Shown in pieces: positions 33,181 to 42,068 of a stretch of DNA of 64,000 bases. The stretch comes from Arthrobacter citreus. GTDB lineage: Bacteria; Actinomycetota; Actinomycetes; Actinomycetales; Micrococcaceae. Within the stretch, counting starts at the first letter, position 1. Every line of letters begins with the position of its first letter. The notes under the pieces are model-generated. The model was not told the origin of the DNA. It did not search any database and saw only the letters and a program-made list of their open reading frames with translations. Made by a program: the position numbers and the translations under genes. The stretch is taken from NCBI RefSeq assembly GCF_009192745.1, contig NZ_VTFV01000007.1, positions 62,001 to 126,000 on the forward strand. Direction: 5' to 3'.

Positions 33181-33486
33181 ATGAACCTCACGCCAAAGGA
33201 AATCGACAAACTTTACGTCTACCAGGTGGCCGAGCTGGCCCGAAGGCGCCGGGACCGGGGAACCAAACTCAACGTCAGCGAGGCCATTGCCCTGATCTGC
33301 GAGGCAATCCTGGAAGGTGCCCGGGACGGCAAAACCGTCGCTGAAGTGATGGAGCTCGGAAAGCACATAGTTTCCGAGGGCCAGTGCATGGACGGCGTCC
33401 GCGAACGGCTGCCCCTTCTGCAGGTCGAAGCGACCTTCGTCGACGGCAGCAAGCTGGTCTCCTGCCACGATCCGATCGGGGTGTGA
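33181..33486 (+). CDS. ureA: Urease subunit gamma
   Basis: 101 residues starting MNLTPKEIDKLYVYQVAELA, the expected length for UreA. GAAGGTGAAG precedes the ATG. The frame is open further upstream but passes through non-homologous sequence. Conserved features include LNVSEAIALICEAILEGARD and the end VSCHDPI. It is the first gene of a nine-gene urea operon and forms the urease apoenzyme with UreB and UreC. Confidence 0.95.
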   Translation: MNLTPKEIDKLYVYQVAELARRRRDRGTKLNVSEAIALICEAILEGARDGKTVAEVMELGKHIVSEGQCMDGVRERLPLLQVEATFVDGSKLVSCHDPIGV

Positions 33487-33487
33487 C

Positions 33488-34381
33488 TTGACCCGGCCCA
33501 CGGAGCCGGATGCGACGGTAGTACTGGTCGGAGGACATGAAAGCGGCAACGGTGCTGATCTGGCCTTCGTGCCGGATCTTGTGCCCGGCGCACTTATCAC
33601 TCCCGCCGGCCGGCCCCTGCACAACCTGCTCACGCGCCTCCTGGCCCGCAGCAGGGAAGCAGCTTCCGACCCGCGGCCCGTAGTGGTGCTGCCCATGACA
33701 TTCGGCCGCAACCCCACCCTCGTTGCCGATACGGCGAAGACACTTCGCTGGCTGGGTGCCGCCGCAGGTCAGCCCGCAGCTCCACTCTCCCTGGCCGATC
33801 CCTTCGGAACGAGCGACCACCTCACGGCCTGGCTCAGGACTGCGGCGGTCGAAGTGCGCAGGCGGTCACCGAAAGCGGCAATGCTGATCACTGCCGACGC
33901 CGCGAACCCTTTCGACGATGCCGACCTTTACCGCGTCACCCATTTGGTGCGGACGCACGGAGCAGGCATCCCCGTCGAAACGGCAACTGTGGGCAGCGTC
34001 GGCGGGCTCCTGGAAGCGGTCCAGCGGCTCCGGCGGCTTGGCAGCGTGCACACCGTTGTGGTTCCCGCCGGGTTCCGGCGTGCGGGAACCGTCCACTCGG
34101 AGGCGGTGCCGTTCCGCGCCGGCGAGTTCTCCGACGTCGAATTCTACGGCGCGCTGCTGAGCGAGCAGGCAGTGCTGCGTGTCATTCGTGATCGGGTCCG
34201 GGACGCCCTGCATGCCCTCAGCCACGGCCGTTCCGGCGTGGAAGCCGGGCTGCAGGCCGACCACGGCCACGGCTACGCCCATTCACACGCCTTCGAGGAG
34301 GCGTCCGGCGGGCACTCACACACCCACGGCGTAGCTGCCGGCCATACGCACAGCTACCCCGCCCCGACTGGCAGGAACTGA
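33488..34381 (+). CDS. CbiX/SirB-like chelatase-fold protein with His-rich tail inside the urease operon
   Basis: 297 residues starting at a TTG one base after the ureA stop, with only a weak ribosome site. Two repeated halves look like the CbiX/sirohydrochlorin-chelatase fold. Half 1 has VVLVGGHESGNG at the N-terminus and VVVLPMTFGRNPTLV. Half 2 has AMLITADAANPFDDADLYR and HTVVVPAGFRRAG. The His of the first half is retained (H17), but the second chelatase His position appears replaced. Residues 257-291 form a tail with nine His, as HGHG, HSHA, HSHTHG and HTH. No cobalamin or sirohaem genes are near, and the operon lacks ureE. I infer a nickel-binding chaperone or store for urease; no experiment is known to me. 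Confidence 0.65.
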   Translation: MTRPTEPDATVVLVGGHESGNGADLAFVPDLVPGALITPAGRPLHNLLTRLLARSREAASDPRPVVVLPMTFGRNPTLVADTAKTLRWLGAAAGQPAAPLSLADPFGTSDHLTAWLRTAAVEVRRRSPKAAMLITADAANPFDDADLYRVTHLVRTHGAGIPVETATVGSVGGLLEAVQRLRRLGSVHTVVVPAGFRRAGTVHSEAVPFRAGEFSDVEFYGALLSEQAVLRVIRDRVRDALHALSHGRSGVEAGLQADHGHGYAHSHAFEEASGGHSHTHGVAAGHTHSYPAPTGRN

Positions 34382-34438: not shown

Positions 34439-34885
34439 ATGCTGGGCACCCCAAGTTATGACCATAAGCAAGAGGACATTGAGATAAACGCCGGCCGGCC
34501 AAGCGTCACCCTGCTGGTAAGCAACACCGGAGACCGGGCGGTGCAGATAGGCTCGCACTTCCACTTCTTCGAAACCAACAAGGCCCTCCTGTTCGAACGT
34601 GAGCGGGCCTACGGAATGCATCTGGACCTTCCAGCAGGCACCGGCGTCCGGATTGAGGCCGGGGATACCCGGGAGGTAACCCTCACCGCCTACGCGGGAA
34701 ACCGGCGGGTGATCGGCTTCAACAACCTTGTTGACGGCGGACTCGACGCTGCGGACACCAAGATCCGCGCGATGGAGCGGATGAGGGAACTCGGGTTCCA
34801 GGACGGCAAGCCGACCGCCAAACCAACTGCCGGCAAAAAAGACGGCACGGGCAAAACCCCTGCCGCAAAAGAGGGGAAGAAGTGA
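34439..34885 (+). CDS. ureB: Urease subunit beta
   Basis: 148 residues. The beta-subunit core spans about 10-105, with VGSHFHFFE-like sequence ([16 protein letters not shown]) and [14 protein letters not shown]. The C-terminal 35 residues are a Lys/Thr/Ala/Pro-rich extension not found in the shortest UreB proteins. GGGAAGGACAG precedes the ATG. The stop overlaps the ureC ATG by one base (TGATG). Confidence 0.93.
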
Positions 34886-36609
34886 TGGCCAGGATCCCGC
34901 GCAAACAGTACACCGACCTCTTTGGCCCGACTACCGGAGACCGGGTGCGCCTGGCAGACACCAATCTGGTGATCGAGATTGAGAAGGACTTCAACGAGGG
35001 CCACTACGGCGACGAAGTTGTCTACGGCGGCGGCAAGACAGCCCGCGACGGCATGGCCGCAGACCCCCAGGCGACTTCCGCTGAAGGCGTCCTGGACCTG
35101 GTCATCACGAATGCCATTATCCTGGACCCCATCCTCGGAGTCGTTAAGGGCGACATCGGCATTCGCGACGGAAAGATCGCCGGGGTCGGCAAATCCGGGA
35201 ACCCGCATACCCAGAGCGGAGTTGACCCCCGTCTTGTCGTTGGACCAGGCACCGAACTGCTCGCCGGCGAACACTTCATCGCCACAGCCGGTGGCATCGA
35301 CTCCCACGTCCACTACATCTCCCCCGAGCAGGCGCTGGCGGCGCTCTCCAACGGCATCACCACCCTTTTTGGGGGCGGCACGGGGCCAACGGACGGTACT
35401 AACGGCGTCACTACAACCCCCGGCGTCTGGAACATAGCCACGATGCTCCGGTCCATCGAGGGGATGCCCGTCAACATGGGCATTCTTGGAAAAGGCAACG
35501 GATCGCTGCCGGACGCACTGATCGAGCAGATCGAGGGCGGAGCAGCGGGCCTCAAGGTTCATGAGGACTTCGGAGCGACACCGGCCGCGCTCAGCATGGC
35601 ACTTTCAGTCGCGGACGATTACGACGTCCAGATCTCGGTGCACACCGACAGCCTCAACGAGGCCGGATATGTAGAGAACACGCTGGACGCCATCGATGGC
35701 CGCACCATCCACACCTTCCACACCGAGGGCGCCGGCGGCGGGCACGCCCCGGACATCATCAAGGTGGCCGGCTACCCCAACGTGCTTCCGTCGTCAACGA
35801 ACCCCACATTGCCTTATACGGCCAACTCCGTGGACGAGCTGCTGGACATGGTGATGGTCTGCCACCACCTCTCCCACGACATCCCCGAGGACGTCGCCTT
35901 TGCGGACTCGCGCGTTCGTGCCGAGACCATCTCCGCTGAGACGGTTTTCCACGACGAGGGCATCATCTCGATGGTGTCCTCCGATTCCCAGGCCATGGGG
36001 CGCATCGGTGAATCCTTTATGCGCACCTTCCAAATTGCGCACCACTGCAAGGACCAGCGCGGCAAGCTGCCGGAAGACAGCGCGGACAATGACAACTTCC
36101 GCGTGCTGCGGTTCCTTGCCAAGATCACCATCAACCCGGCCATCACCCAGGGTGTCTCCGATTACATCGGGTCACTGGAAGAGGGCAAAATGGCGGACAT
36201 CGTGCTCTGGCCGATTCAGTCCTTCGCCGCCAAGCCGAGGCTGATCGTTAAGGGCGGCCTGATCAACTGGGCGCTGATGGGAGACCCGAACGCTTCACTG
36301 CCCACCCCGCAGCCGGTGTTCTACCGGCCTATGTTCGGCGCGCAGGGCAAGGCGCTGCAGAGCACCCGGGCGACCTTTATGTCCAAGGCTGCCATTGACA
36401 AGGGCGTGCCGGAAACGCTTGGCCTGGAGAGCCAGATCCTGCCGGTGCACCGCTGCCGCGGCATCGGGAAGGAACATATGGTCCGCAACAATGCCACGCC
36501 GGATATCACGGTGGATCCGGAGACCTATGACGTGACCTATAACGGCACGCTGGCGAAGATACCCCCGGCGCAGTCCCTGCCGCTGACCCAGCTGTTCTTC
36601 CTGGCGTAG
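34885..36609 (+). CDS. ureC: Urease subunit alpha (catalytic)
   Basis: 574 residues, a normal length. All active-site residues are present at a constant +7 offset from Klebsiella urease: nickel ligands H141, H143, H253, H279 and D367; carbamylated K224 in GLKVHEDFG; flap residues C326 and H327 in MVCHHLSHD. It hydrolyses urea to ammonia and carbamate. The ATG at 34885 is preferred over the GTG one codon earlier because of the TGATG coupling with ureB and the family N-terminus [19 protein letters not shown]. Confidence 0.97.
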
Positions 36610-36618
36610 GAACACAGG

Positions 36619-37308
36619 ATGTCGGACGTAAGGCAGCTGCTCACCAGCCTGCAGTTCGCGGATTCGGCCTTTCCCAGCGGGTTCTACACAATGTCGCACG
36701 GACTCGAGGGCTTCAGCCAGGCCAGGCTCGTCTCGCGCGGCGATGTGCAGCCGCTGCTGGCGGATCTGCTGCTGCACTCCGTTGGACCCGGGGATGCAAC
36801 GGCACTCGCCGCGGCACACCGCGCGGCGTCCGACGGCGACATCGAACTCGTTCAGGAAATCGACCAGCTTCTCTTCGCCTCCAAGCTGAACGCGGAGATG
36901 CGTACGGCCTCCGTGCGCAGCGGACACCAGCTGATCGATCTCGGTGCCGAGTTGATTGAGCAGCCGCTGCTCGCTGAATACGGTGCCAGGGTGCGCAGCC
37001 GGGCCACCCCCGGCTGCCAGCCTGTTGCCTCGGCCGTGATTTATGCGGCTAATGGCGTCCAGACCCGGCAGGCCGTGGCCTCGGACCTGTTCGCCTTTTC
37101 GGCAAGCTTCGTTGGTGCCGCGCTCCGCCTGCGGCTTACCGACCACCGGCATGCCCAGGCCGTCCTGCTGGAAACGGCTGGAGTAATGGAGCAGGCCACG
37201 GACGCCGCGCTTGAGCGCGACCTCGCCGACCTCGGCGGCTGCGTGCCGCTGGCCGATGTCATGTCCGCCCAGCACGAAAAAGCCGAGGCACGGCTCTTCG
37301 CCAGCTGA
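36619..37308 (+). CDS. ureF: Urease accessory protein UreF
   Basis: 229 all-helical residues with the family opening LLTSLQFADSAFPSGFYTMS. UreF bridges UreD and UreG on the apo-urease during nickel insertion. Nine bases separate it from ureC. The gap to ureG is 78 bases and contains a perfect dyad. Confidence 0.92.
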   Translation: MSDVRQLLTSLQFADSAFPSGFYTMSHGLEGFSQARLVSRGDVQPLLADLLLHSVGPGDATALAAAHRAASDGDIELVQEIDQLLFASKLNAEMRTASVRSGHQLIDLGAELIEQPLLAEYGARVRSRATPGCQPVASAVIYAANGVQTRQAVASDLFAFSASFVGAALRLRLTDHRHAQAVLLETAGVMEQATDAALERDLADLGGCVPLADVMSAQHEKAEARLFAS

Positions 37309-37386: not shown

Positions 37387-38022
37387 ATGAGCGAGAACGT
37401 GTTGAGGATCGGCATCGGCGGACCCGTGGGCAGCGGCAAGACTGCCCTGACGGAGGCCCTCGTTCCCCGGCTCATCGCGGCCGGCCGAACCCCGGGCGTC
37501 ATCACCAACGACATCTATACCCAGGAGGACGCCCACCACGTCCGCCGGGAATTGGACGGCATCCTGGACCCGGAGCGCGTCATTGGGGTCGAGACCGGTT
37601 CCTGCCCGCATACGGCCGTGCGGGATGATCCAACCATGAACCTGGCAGTCGGCGCCGAAATGCTGGAGCGGTTCCCGGATGTCGATACGCTCATCTACGA
37701 ATCGGGCGGGGACAACCTGACGCTGACATTTTCGCCCGCCCTGGCGGATGTGTTCGTGTTCGTGCTGGACACAGCGGAGGGCGAGAAAATGCCCCGCAAA
37801 CGGGGACCTGGCATTACGGACAGCGACATCCTGGTGATCAACAAGATCGATATCGCCCAGTACGTCCGTACGGACCTGGGCGTCATGGAGGCCGATGCGC
37901 ACCGGGTGCGCGAAGACAGGCCGGTGGTGCTGACCAACTCACTCACCGGGCAGGGAGTCGATGAGCTGCACCAGCAGATCATGACGCAGTGGAACGGCGC
38001 CAGAACCGAGCTCATCGGATGA
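37387..38022 (+). CDS. ureG: Urease accessory GTPase UreG
   Basis: 211 residues of the SIMIBI GTPase class. The P-loop GPVGSGKT is at 12-19, the nickel-binding CPH motif is in GSCPHTAVRDD, and the G-domain motif NKID is present. GTP hydrolysis drives nickel delivery. Unlike some actinobacterial UreG proteins it has no His-rich N-terminal extension, so nickel storage must lie elsewhere. GAGGAAG precedes the ATG; the stop overlaps ureD by four bases. Confidence 0.95.
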   Translation: MSENVLRIGIGGPVGSGKTALTEALVPRLIAAGRTPGVITNDIYTQEDAHHVRRELDGILDPERVIGVETGSCPHTAVRDDPTMNLAVGAEMLERFPDVDTLIYESGGDNLTLTFSPALADVFVFVLDTAEGEKMPRKRGPGITDSDILVINKIDIAQYVRTDLGVMEADAHRVREDRPVVLTNSLTGQGVDELHQQIMTQWNGARTELIG

Positions 38023-39068
38023 CGGTCAAAGCCGCGGAACCGGAAAGCACTTCCCCTCCCCAGCTGGATGGGGTCCCCCAGCCACAGGTTCCGCAGACCG
38101 GAGGCCGGCCTCCGAGCACGGGCGGCTACCGGCTCGAGCCGGCTTACTTTGAACCGGACCGGGTGCCGGAGGAAGTCCTGCGCCACTCGGGGGCGCCGCG
38201 CAGCCTGCCGGTCGGCAGCCCGGGCAAGGTGGGTGTGCTGCAGCTCGGTTTCGACCGCAACCGCGGCCGGACCGAGCTGGTAGAGCATTACCAGAAGTCT
38301 CCGCTGCAGATCATGCATCCGCTGTACTTCAACCTGCTGCGCCCCGACATGCCTTACACCTACCTCATGTCATCGGGCGGAGGCATCCTGCAGGGCGACC
38401 GGCAGCGCACCGACCTGCGGTTCGGTGCCGGGACATCGGCCCACGTGACCACCCAGGCGCATACCCGGATCTACCGCATGGACTACGGTTACGCGACCGC
38501 CGTCGTTAACCTCGCGGCTGAAGAAGATGCGTACGTTGAGTACCTGCCGGACCCGGTTGTCCCTTTCGCGGATTCGCGTTTCTACCAGCAGACTTCAGTG
38601 GTGCTGGACGAGTCCGCGACGCTGCTGCTGGGCGAGACCGTCTACGCCGGACGGCTGGCCCGCGGCGAGCGGCACGCCTATGACGTGTATGCCTCCGACC
38701 TTGAGGTGCGGCGTCCCGACGGCCAGCTGGTCGCCCTGGACAGGGTGCGGCTCTGTCCAGGGGACGGGGAAGAGGGAAGCGGCGTAAACGGATTGGGTGT
38801 GCTTGCGGGCCACGATGTGCTCGCGATGCTCTACGTCTTCACTCCCCTCGCTCCCCCGGCGCAGCTGGCAGACACACTGTTCCGGGCGGTTGGCGAAAGC
38901 GGGGGCGACCTGATCTACGGGGTGAGTACCCTGCCCGGCAATACCGGGGTTTGGATGCGCCTGGTTGGCAACGACACCGTGGCAGTGGCGGCCGCGAACA
39001 CGGCAGCTGCTTCCGCCGTGCATGAGCTGCTGACCGGGAAGCAGGCGCCCCACATTCGGAAAAACTAG
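38019..39068 (+). CDS. ureD: Urease accessory protein UreD
   Basis: 349 residues from an ATG that overlaps the ureG stop (ATGA). Family blocks include MHPLYFNLLRPDMPYTYLMS, GGILQGDRQRTDL and THAHTRIY-type sequence (TQAHTRIYRMDYGYA). UreD binds apo-urease and carries nickel through its tunnel from UreG/UreF. The N-terminal 60 residues are Pro-rich and poorly conserved. Confidence 0.92.
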   Translation: MTVKAAEPESTSPPQLDGVPQPQVPQTGGRPPSTGGYRLEPAYFEPDRVPEEVLRHSGAPRSLPVGSPGKVGVLQLGFDRNRGRTELVEHYQKSPLQIMHPLYFNLLRPDMPYTYLMSSGGGILQGDRQRTDLRFGAGTSAHVTTQAHTRIYRMDYGYATAVVNLAAEEDAYVEYLPDPVVPFADSRFYQQTSVVLDESATLLLGETVYAGRLARGERHAYDVYASDLEVRRPDGQLVALDRVRLCPGDGEEGSGVNGLGVLAGHDVLAMLYVFTPLAPPAQLADTLFRAVGESGGDLIYGVSTLPGNTGVWMRLVGNDTVAVAAANTAAASAVHELLTGKQAPHIRKN

Positions 39069-39081
39069 GAAGGGTCTGACC

Positions 39082-40272
39082 GTGCGTGGACAAAGCGGTA
39101 CGCAGACGGCGACGGCAGGGCCGCAGCATTCCTTCCGGGCGCAGGTCATTCTGGCCTTCATACCCGTTGTGCTCCTGCACATCGCGGGGTTCGGACTGTT
39201 CTTTTTCCTGGTGGAACCGCTGCACCTGCAGCTTGGATCCTCCGTCTTTGGAGTCGGTATTGCCGTGGTGGCCTATGTGCTCGGCGTGAGGCACGCCTTC
39301 GACGCCGACCACATTGCCGCCATTGACAACACGACCCGCAAGCTCGTTGACCTGCGCCGGCCCGCCGCCGGCGTCGGCCTGTTCTTCTCACTGGGGCACT
39401 CCACCATCGTCTTCCTGATGGCGGCGCTGCTGGCACTCGGAGTGAGCTGGGCCGTGGGGCTGAGCGACGACGGCAACGAGGTCCGCAACGGCCTGGGCGT
39501 TTTCGGCACGCTCGTGTCCGGCGTCTTCCTGCTGCTGATCGGGCTCATCAACGCCGTCGCCTTTATGGGAATCCTGAAGGTCTGGCGGGCTTCACGCAAC
39601 GGCGAGCTGGACCAGGTGGAGCTGGAACGCCACCTTCAGGGACGCGGCTTCATCACCCGGATTCTCCGGCCGCTGCTGAAGACGATCGACCGGCCGGGGA
39701 AGATGTACGCTGTCGGGTTCCTGTTCGGGCTTGGTTTTGACACCGCCAGTGAGATCGCGCTGCTGGTGCTTGCCGGAACCGGAGCGGCCACAGGCCTGCC
39801 CTGGTATGCCATCCTCTGCCTGCCGCTCATCTTCGCAGCCGGCATGAGCCTGTTCGACACCCTCGACTCGGCCGTTATGGTCCGCGCCTACGGCTGGGCA
39901 AGCGTCAACGCGATCCGCAAGGTTTACTACAACCTGACCATCACCGGGCTCTCCGTGATGATTGCCGTCATCATTGGCGGCATAGAGCTGGTTGGCCTGC
40001 TGAACGAGAAGCTTGGGCTTCGGGATCCGCTCACCGGGTGGGTTGCCGGGATCGATCTGGAGAACGTGGGATACATCATCGCGGGCACCCTGGTCCTGGT
40101 CTGGCTCATCTCCACCGCCTACTGGAAGTTCGGGAGGGTGGAAGAGCGGTGGGCTCAACCAGGCCCCGGGAGCGTTCTCCCCGGTGAGGGCCCGCAACGG
40201 GGCCGCAGGCCTGGCAAAACACCCGAGCCGGGCCGGCCGCCAGGCACCCCTGCCGGAGAGGAAACAGCATGA
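39082..40272 (+). CDS. NixA/HoxN-family nickel permease
   Basis: 396 residues with eight or so membrane segments. The signature RHAFDADHIAAIDN lies in the second segment (nickel or cobalt selectivity site), and LFFSLGHSTIVF and GFDTASEIALL are also family motifs. The C-terminal 45 residues are Pro/Gly-rich and cytoplasmic. The start is a GTG with GGAAGGG eight bases upstream. Being in the urease operon, it imports Ni(II) for UreC. Confidence 0.92.
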   Translation: MRGQSGTQTATAGPQHSFRAQVILAFIPVVLLHIAGFGLFFFLVEPLHLQLGSSVFGVGIAVVAYVLGVRHAFDADHIAAIDNTTRKLVDLRRPAAGVGLFFSLGHSTIVFLMAALLALGVSWAVGLSDDGNEVRNGLGVFGTLVSGVFLLLIGLINAVAFMGILKVWRASRNGELDQVELERHLQGRGFITRILRPLLKTIDRPGKMYAVGFLFGLGFDTASEIALLVLAGTGAATGLPWYAILCLPLIFAAGMSLFDTLDSAVMVRAYGWASVNAIRKVYYNLTITGLSVMIAVIIGGIELVGLLNEKLGLRDPLTGWVAGIDLENVGYIIAGTLVLVWLISTAYWKFGRVEERWAQPGPGSVLPGEGPQRGRRPGKTPEPGRPPGTPAGEETA

Positions 40273-41198
40273 GCAGCACAGGGGCAACCGCTCCGCACCC
40301 TGCCATCCCGGCCGCAGGCTGGCTAAAAGGCTGGGGCCAGGGGCTCTCGCAGATCTTCTTCCAGAGCAACGTCTTCACAGCGCTGCTGATACTGGCTGCC
40401 TTTGCCGTCGCAGACTGGCGCATGGCCCTGCTGGTCCTCATCGGTGCCGCGGGCAACACGGTGGCCGGGCGCCTGATCGGAGCCGACTCGTCCTCGGTCA
40501 TGGCGGGGATGCAGGGCTTCTGCGGCGCCCTGGTCGGAGCAGCGACCTATGCGGCTATCGGCGCCCCATGGGAGGCGTATCCAATCGCACTGGCCGGGGG
40601 CATACTCTGCGCCCCGGTAATTTGGCTGGTGAACGCACTGTTCACAAAGACGCCGCTGAGGATCTACGGGCTGCCCTCGACCACGGCTCCGTTCTGCATC
40701 GTGGCGACGATCATCCTGTTCAGCACTGAGCCGCTGCATGTGAGCGCGGCATCATCGGACACCATCGATTCGGCACCGCTGGCCTTCGTACGTTCCCTGC
40801 TGACGAACGTGTCCGAGGTAGTACTCATCAACAACGAATGGTCCGGAGCGCTCATCCTGCTGGGTCTGTTCGTGGCGAGCTGGAAGGTTGGCCTGGCCGG
40901 CCTGCTCGGCAGCGTGGTGGGCAGCCTGTGCGCCCTGGCTCTCGGTGAAGCCCTTACCGAGACGGCCAACGGCCTGGCCGGCTACTCCGGCGTGCTGACT
41001 GCGATCGCGCTGGCCGTCGTGTTCCTGCGCAGCAGTACCGTCTCATGGGTGCTCGCGGTCATTGGAACCGCGGTGACAGCGTTGGTCACACTGCTGATGC
41101 ACGACATAGCCGCGCCCACCTACACCTGGCCCTACATCCTCACTACCTGGGTGTTCCTGGTCATCGCCCACTACATTCCCGCGGCAAAGCGTCCCTAG
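40269..41198 (+). CDS. Urea transporter (UT family)
   Basis: 309 residues, about ten membrane segments in two homologous halves. The opening GLSQIFFQSNVFTALLILAA and the central GLPSTTAPFCIVATI are typical of bacterial urea channels. The ATG overlaps the nickel permease stop by four bases. It is the last gene of the urea operon and brings the substrate to urease. Confidence 0.88.
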   Translation: MSSTGATAPHPAIPAAGWLKGWGQGLSQIFFQSNVFTALLILAAFAVADWRMALLVLIGAAGNTVAGRLIGADSSSVMAGMQGFCGALVGAATYAAIGAPWEAYPIALAGGILCAPVIWLVNALFTKTPLRIYGLPSTTAPFCIVATIILFSTEPLHVSAASSDTIDSAPLAFVRSLLTNVSEVVLINNEWSGALILLGLFVASWKVGLAGLLGSVVGSLCALALGEALTETANGLAGYSGVLTAIALAVVFLRSSTVSWVLAVIGTAVTALVTLLMHDIAAPTYTWPYILTTWVFLVIAHYIPAAKRP

Positions 41199-41238: not shown

Positions 41239-41616
41239 CTACAGCGAAGCACCGATCCAAAGGCCGGCCGCGGCAGCGGCGACGGAGAGCAGAAGCATGA
41301 CGATTCCGCTGATGAAAGACGCGCCGTAGCGGCCCTTTTTGATGAGCTGCACGGTCTCGTAGCTTGCCGTGCTGAAGGTCGTATAGCCGCCAAGGAATCC
41401 GGTACCAATGACGATGCTGACGTCGGTGGATACAAAATGCTCCACGGTGAGGCCGGTAAGAAAGCCAAGCACGAGCGAACCCGAGACGTTGATGATCGTC
41501 GTCGCCCAGGCGAACCGCGTCTTGGAGTGGGCACGGATGAACCCGTCCAGCATAAAGCGCACAGTGGCCCCCACACCGCCTGCCAGGGCCAGCAATAGGA
41601 AGATTCCGGGGGTCAT
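41239..41616 (-). CDS. crcB: Fluoride channel subunit
   Basis: 125 residues, four membrane segments, with the Fluc motif GTGFLGGYTTFST containing the polar track and Phe box. It pairs with the upstream copy, which it overlaps by four bases; two-gene Fluc systems form heterodimers with antiparallel subunits. It converges on the urea transporter with a 40-base gap. Confidence 0.9.
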   Translation of the reverse strand: MTPGIFLLLALAGGVGATVRFMLDGFIRAHSKTRFAWATTIINVSGSLVLGFLTGLTVEHFVSTDVSIVIGTGFLGGYTTFSTASYETVQLIKKGRYGASFISGIVMLLLSVAAAAAGLWIGASL

Positions 41617-42068
41617 GTCGCATCCTCCTGTTCATCCCTGCGCGGGCCAGGGGCACGGTTGTTGACGGCGGTCGCGATCGCGATGCCCGCCCAGGTGGCG
41701 CAGGCGCCCACAATCACCGTGGCCAGCGCGTAAATCACTGCGGATCCCGGGAGCCCGTCGCGGAAAAGCACGGCGGTGTCGGTGGCCAGCGAGCTGTAGG
41801 TGGTGAAGCCGCCGCAGAACCCGGTGCCCAGCAGGAGCTTGAGGTTCGCGCCGGTCGGACGCGCCTTGTCCAGGCGGGTGACGGCTTCGTAAAGGTAGCC
41901 GAGCAGGAAGGCACCGATCACGTTGATGATCGGGATCGCAATCGGGACTTCGCCGAGGTTGGGGATGACGAGCGACAGGCCCTCGCGGCTTGCTGCGCCG
42001 GCAGCCCCGCCGAGGGCAACCAGTCCGATCGGGCCCCAGCGCAGGTACGCCGCGCGGGTGCCGCTCAT
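41613..42068 (-). CDS. crcB: Fluoride channel subunit, second copy
   Basis: 151 residues, four membrane segments, with the Fluc motif GTGFCGGFTTYSS. The N- and C-termini are longer and more polar than in the partner. It is the first gene of the pair. I looked for a fluoride riboswitch in the leader and did not find one. Confidence 0.9.
   Translation of the reverse strand: MSGTRAAYLRWGPIGLVALGGAAGAASREGLSLVIPNLGEVPIAIPIINVIGAFLLGYLYEAVTRLDKARPTGANLKLLLGTGFCGGFTTYSSLATDTAVLFRDGLPGSAVIYALATVIVGACATWAGIAIATAVNNRAPGPRRDEQEDAT

Follow-up and report, generated by a model that had tools for sequence, protein, structure and literature searches.

We examined an open reading frame in the urease operon of Arthrobacter citreus, located in a stretch of 64,000 nucleotides (contig NZ_VTFV01000007.1, positions 62,001 to 126,000; hereafter the window). 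The frame (33488-34381, + strand) has a TTG start, and its predicted protein of 297 amino acids is called X here. An earlier note, made from the sequence alone, had placed this gene between ureA and ureB, one base past the ureA stop, and the coordinates agree (the stop ends at 33486). The nine histidines (His) that it reported among the final 40 residues were also counted, out of 18 in the whole protein, which contains no cysteine (Cys). Each of the remaining operon parts (ureABC, ureFGD, nickel permease and urea transporter) matched Pfam or NCBIfam models, as expected from its description of an otherwise complete operon, and all of these genes, from ureA through the urea transporter, lie on one strand. 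The window UreG comprises 211 amino acids, with a bare N-terminus of 10 residues and no His tail, so it indeed lacks a His-rich extension. The claim that no tetrapyrrole genes are nearby was checked for eight flanking genes only, by Pfam scan, and was true of these (one without a match). The presence of X in a urease operon is confirmed.

A His-tailed chelatase-fold protein without the catalytic pair

The window protein alone had no Pfam match. Among the X homologues, 11 out of 22 matched the CbiX family (PF01903) at E<=1 (best E 1.7e-5), and 4 out of 10 members scanned singly exceeded the curated cut-off (L044, L056, L057 and L058; L and G numbers are our handles for loci and genomes). Alignment of X to CbiX with hhalign gave 98.3%, with an E of 1.6e-14 over 250 columns. 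Profile and structure comparison both recovered a two-lobed domain with the chelatase fold, in line with the two-half CbiX/SirB-like architecture that had been read from the sequence; CfbA, also proposed for the structure check, was not among the matches listed, which excludes nothing. X belongs to the class II chelatase superfamily (PF01903, CbiX). Sequence searches of the PDB with X alone or with an X profile returned no meaningful relative. We rejected a de novo TIM-barrel matched by the profile in the PDB, which looks like a repeat artefact, and matches of X to NCBIfam short-chain dehydrogenase models, taken as chance. The UreE_N and UreE_C domains were not found in X (no Pfam match for the window protein, no UreE family across 22 members); one member matched the NCBIfam UreE model PRK13262 (E 5.3e-4), most likely through its His tail.

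Our alignment comprised 35 out of 36 X proteins: one came from a remnant locus in genome G818 and the other 34 from ureA-X-ureB loci. The second chelatase His, which the earlier note considered lost, is replaced by asparagine in 20 proteins and by aspartate in 15, and His never occurs at this position. The first one (H17) is conserved in 34 out of 35 and replaced by arginine in L229, while E18 and H111 are invariant. H111 falls where several CbiX proteins have an LGxHP motif and is therefore probably characteristic of the family rather than a new ligand. The core motifs retained in X include (D/E)HL..(W/L)LR and PFDDA-L, and the catalytic His pair that functional CbiX, SirB and CfbA have in one lobe is absent. 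In L229 (8153-9013) GRES replaces GHES, yet the His tail is very long.

These residues bear on whether X is still a tetrapyrrole chelatase, inserting cobalt, iron or nickel into sirohydrochlorin and located near urease genes by accident, which we consider highly improbable. Such a role would fit the shared fold and superfamily, the invariant E18 and nearly invariant H17, and the lack of any PF01903 match at E<=0.01 in the own genome and five X-bearing genus mates, although the model misses X there too. It does not fit the second catalytic His being absent throughout and the first in one member, the location of X in urease loci, or the eight flanking genes. Moreover, among the 11 X genomes from other genera, 9 encode a PF01903 protein distinct from X (best E 5.8e-16 or lower); of the other two, G426 has no PF01903 gene and in G431 the weak match is the X locus itself.

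The model of X has low confidence from about residue 261 onward, in the His-rich tail. His numbers in the tails ranged from 7 to 32 (median 11) in 40 rows excluding the G818 remnant; six of these rows were duplicates, leaving 34 distinct copies, or 35 with L229. All 35 distinct copies from ureA-X-ureB loci had a His-rich tail. Tail length and residue order vary widely across X, while the His richness is maintained.

The large sirohydrochlorin cobaltochelatase CbiX^L (e.g. of Bacillus megaterium) shares with X the two-lobed class II fold, the position of the N-terminal catalytic His and a His-rich C-terminal tail (PMC7689651, in the portion available; L178, L061). X differs in lacking the second catalytic His and the MNCDxC motif before the tail, and in its urease operon. 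The CbiX^L Cys motif (4Fe-4S) is present in L178 and L061 and absent from the five X proteins aligned. The earlier note drew a parallel with small nickel-inserting chelatases of methanogens, but CbiX^L, reported to be His-tailed, is closer to X than the nickel-inserting CfbA. CfbA, a class II chelatase like SirB and CbiK, is small and draws on two subunits that contribute two His each (same portion of PMC7689651), whereas X is fused and lacks the pair.

Features of the urease operon and of X in the window
Feature	Position	Strand	Evidence
ureA (urease gamma)	33181..33486	+	Pfam PF00547, E 5.8e-40
X, chelatase-fold His-tailed protein, ureA/ureB interval	33488..34381	+	fold, homology, synteny
H17 codon, first chelatase His position (GGHES)	33536..33538	+	alignment to CbiX
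N75 codon, near second chelatase His of CbiX proteins	33710..33712	+	alignment to CbiX
H111 codon, (D/E)HL motif	33818..33820	+	X alignment
His-rich C-terminal tail of X, residues 258-297, 9 His in 40	34259..34378	+	composition; predicted model
ureB (urease beta)	34439..34885	+	PF00699, E 4.2e-39
ureC (urease alpha)	34882..36609	+	TIGR01792; active-site motifs 6/6
ureF	36619..37308	+	PF01730, E 1.5e-33
ureG, no His extension	37387..38022	+	TIGR00101, 242.8 bits; both ends read
ureD, longest frame, true start possibly further in	37989..39068	+	PF01774, E 1.9e-51
NicT-type nickel transporter	39082..40272	+	PF03824, E 3.1e-87
urea transporter	40269..41198	+	PF03253, E 1.7e-59

The UreC active site was checked by six motifs; in L046 and L050 five out of six were found, with HSD in place of HTD. 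The only Rfam match in the window, 5_ureB_sRNA (70 bits, 35058-35340, - strand), lies antisense within ureC and probably reflects conserved coding sequence, not a small RNA gene. Two adjacent, overlapping genes of the CrcB family, a fluoride channel family, lie downstream of the urea transporter (41239-42068, - strand).

Distribution of X and its urease clade

Within the genus, X was encoded in 15 out of 29 genomes with 70-100% identity, and the order ureA-X-ureB-ureC was found in all 15. The closest named relative was Arthrobacter sp. Edens01 (L038), whose UreC is 99% identical to that of the window. A scan of genome contigs recovered 21 X loci (5 of them also in the genus set) from 12 actinobacterial genera: Arthrobacter, Oerskovia, Rhodococcus, Microterricola, Sanguibacter, Humibacter, Mumia, Nocardioides, Cellulomonas, Streptomyces, Antrihabitans and Catenulispora. 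X was located between ureA and ureB in all 21 loci, so its tie to the urease locus held strictly across genera, and ureC, ureF, ureG, ureD and a urea transporter match were near X in every one; a nickel permease is encoded as well in some X operons. The scan relied on two peptide patterns and therefore undercounts distant members; for the same reason, its finding no X outside actinobacteria is not evidence of absence. Among genomes drawn from the phylum and from the order, where at most six first-look candidates were scored per genome, X was present in 2 out of 396 (own included) and 6 out of 396 (own and G818 included), respectively. Three weak matches were rejected: G168 (L061, phylum) and G577 (L193) encode CbiX-like proteins, and the match in G647 (L194) contains stops. 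A plasmid of Streptomyces sp. NBC_01237 carries a complete X urease operon with a bare UreG, and neither of the two plasmid records with X has a gene annotated beneath the match. The presence in 15 of the 29 genus genomes, the kept gene order and the constant asparagine or aspartate at the second His position make X more than a chance occurrence.

Urease alpha was present in 24 out of 29 genus genomes, in 35 copies: 15 of the X type and 20 of a second, X-less type. Both types occurred together in 11 of the 29 genomes. In the order, UreC was found at E<=1e-50 in 107 out of 396 genomes; five UreCs were at least 75% identical to that of the window (own, G701, which is the same genome as L043, G691, G498 and G493), all with X, and the next-nearest, at 61%, belonged to genomes without an X match. 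In the sets compared for the trees, identity to the window UreC was 70-99% for X loci and 43-62% for X-less loci. X rows formed a single clade (26 out of 82 rows in the quick UreC tree, and 21 out of 64 in the careful one, there with a support of 100/100). X and UreE rows clustered together with a support of 96/93, and the UreE rows L136 and L148 were nearest to the X clade with a support of only 93/51; no root was inferred, and the sample contained just five UreE operons. L114 and L138 (short UreC) as well as L100, L137, L139 and L143 (piece without UreC) were dropped before the trees, 7 of the 20 X-less genus loci went into them, and the careful tree left out 18 near-copies. X marks one urease clade, with no X-less member in the samples searched, and looks like a single origin. 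If the root lies outside the group of X and UreE rows, the simplest reading would be that X replaced UreE.

We also found two partial loci. In G818 (L225:9347-10963), X is followed by ureG and the contig ends about 200 bases past it; the 11 kb fetched showed no further urease gene, and the genome had no listed UreC at E<=1e-50. Past the core, this X retains only 3 His, and the UreG beside it has ETGASPH, without the Cys of the CPH motif, whereas 26 X operons have ETG(S/A)CPH. Both metal features have been lost together in this locus, as if the operon were decaying. On a plasmid of Embleya sp. NBC_00896 (L231:5662-7219), a His-tailed X precedes a UreB-like piece and has a urea-transporter fragment on its other side; neither UreA nor UreC was found within the 12.7 kb read. 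The two loci disagree on tail loss. They also bear on a structural role of X in assembling the UreA-UreB-UreC apoenzyme, with the His tail being secondary, to which we give even less credence than to a working chelatase. The UreB-like piece beside X in L231 agrees with such a role, as do the location of the gene, flanked by ureA and ureB, and the conserved core motifs; a tail that is kept in 35 distinct ureA-X-ureB copies and lost in the urease-less G818 speaks against it.

UreE and His stretches on UreG

We searched for UreE using the Pfam models UreE_N and UreE_C. In the 29 genus genomes, UreE_C had no match at E<=0.01 and UreE_N none over the cut-off, with two sub-cut-off fragments, both in X-less genomes. 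A ureE elsewhere in the same genome, which according to the earlier note would have undone its idea, was not detected, as neither model exceeded the cut-off there. In the other X genomes no match was over the cut-off either; sub-cut-off matches were 1 out of 18 for UreE_C (the 18 include the X-less G168) and 1 out of 21 for UreE_N (the 21 include the G818 remnant). G493, G498 and G691 were covered by the UreE_N model alone, and the two plasmid-bearing organisms fall outside this test. A ureE is reported in Arthrobacter woluwensis (PMC8068144, in the portion available), and none was over the cut-off in our 29 genus genomes, which may or may not include that species. The mutual exclusivity of X and ureE, for which a survey had been suggested, was upheld in that no X genome searched has UreE over the cut-off, but on its own it is a weak point because UreE is rare in the phylum anyway. 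The location of the His stretch in each urease type and the grouping of the X clade with UreE-type ureases are stronger points. We abandoned the view that a lack of UreE makes X necessary, given this rarity and given that the X-less genus urease is also without UreE and has a His-tailed UreG instead.

For UreG, the phylum draw yielded 57 loci over the cut-off, and the 56 other than that of the window were fetched (1 X operon and 55 X-less loci); the latter, minus 5 loci within 2 kb of a UreE match and 3 with a cut UreG, left 47. A His stretch was defined as at least 3 His before the P-loop, counted from the nearest start, or at least 4 after the core, and L099, L100, L138 and L160 were excluded for a cut or frameshifted UreG. 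By the nearest start, no X operon (0 out of 26) and no UreE operon (0 out of 5) had a His stretch on UreG, compared with 30 out of 47 other phylum loci; counting from the most distant start codon within 60 codons gave 2 (L045 and L046), 0 and 34, respectively. All 19 readable X-less genus loci had one by either start. These counts are of related sequences and not of independent events. In 19 out of the 20 X-less genus loci (L149-L168), UreG had a C-terminal tail with 8-9 His. In L160 and L040, UreG was split in two, which may reflect sequencing error or decay.

The available portion of PMC2770081 states that most UreE-less genomes have a UreG with a His stretch, the two exceptions being Bradyrhizobium japonicum and Frankia CcI3, and proposes the stretch as a nickel carrier; our counts extend this rule. 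Unlike operons with His-rich UreG or HypB extensions, X operons have a bare UreG and carry the His stretch on a distinct protein with the chelatase fold. UreE, to which X is similar in its proposed role, likewise accompanied a bare UreG in the five UreE operons. A title cited in PMC7055735 (seen in part) names the His-rich carboxyl terminus of Klebsiella UreE. X has a chelatase fold, whereas no UreE domain was found in it. Among the matches listed in open PMC text, none could be recognised by its title or the start of its abstract as dealing with a urease operon that encodes a chelatase-like protein.

Proposed role of X in nickel delivery

We consider it likely that X is a repurposed CbiX-type chelatase that carries or buffers nickel for urease, taking the place of UreE. 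The interpretation in the earlier note is supported: the chelatase fold, the lack of a ureE over the cut-off and the tie to the urease locus came out as it predicted. X would derive from a CbiX^L-type sirohydrochlorin chelatase and would now be a urease accessory protein, having given up the chelatase active site and retained the two-lobed fold and the disordered His-rich tail. Genomic context suggests that the tail may bind and concentrate Ni(II) and that X may hand it to the bare UreG, or to UreD-UreF-UreG, for insertion into UreC. X would thus take over the job of UreE or of the UreG His stretch, with UreE as the component presumably replaced in the ancestor. More tentatively, and with our doubts slightly prevailing, X could represent a third way of delivering nickel to urease. 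It would then be a chelatase retired from the B12 pathway, with a tail that gathers nickel and a fold, including the H17/E18 site, that hands it to UreG. Such a protein would have displaced UreE in one actinobacterial urease lineage, and a tetrapyrrole chelatase fold would have become a protein metallochaperone.

Several observations weigh against a nickel carrier in the place of UreE. UreE was over the cut-off in only 5 out of 53 ureG-bearing phylum genomes, and the search for nickel carriers covered UreE, while HypA, HypB and SlyD were not searched for. The X operons L045 and L046 have a His-extended UreG if the farthest start is used. Among the 47 X-less, UreE-less phylum loci, UreG was bare in 9 and had only two His in 4, taking the more generous of the two starts (X operons being judged by the nearest one), which may mean that no dedicated carrier is needed or that it is encoded elsewhere. 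With the apparently single origin of X, its link with a bare UreG and an absent UreE amounts to one evolutionary event. His-rich tails can bind other metals. Finally, the tail kept in L231 weakens the argument from tail loss in G818, and it lowered slightly our confidence both in the carrier role and in the displacement of UreE by a third kind of delivery protein.

The main rival is that X binds nickel as a store or detoxifying sink, similar to Hpn, and it differs mainly in that X would make no direct contact with UreG. We regard it as unlikely, though clearly less so than a chelatase or an assembly factor. A disordered tail whose length and sequence differ among X proteins, but whose His richness does not, is what a sink might show, and the nickel permease of some X operons and the tail persisting at the partial Embleya locus also agree with it. 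The adjacency to ureA, the co-inheritance with one urease clade and the conserved globular domain, on the other hand, suggest a partner-specific role.

Because the operon is compact and many actinobacteria of soil have it, the idea lends itself to direct testing. If the carrier role is true, it would explain the nickel supply of ureases without UreE and with a bare UreG, a gap in the rule of PMC2770081 as given in its available portion, and a chelatase fold would have moved from small-molecule to protein metalation.
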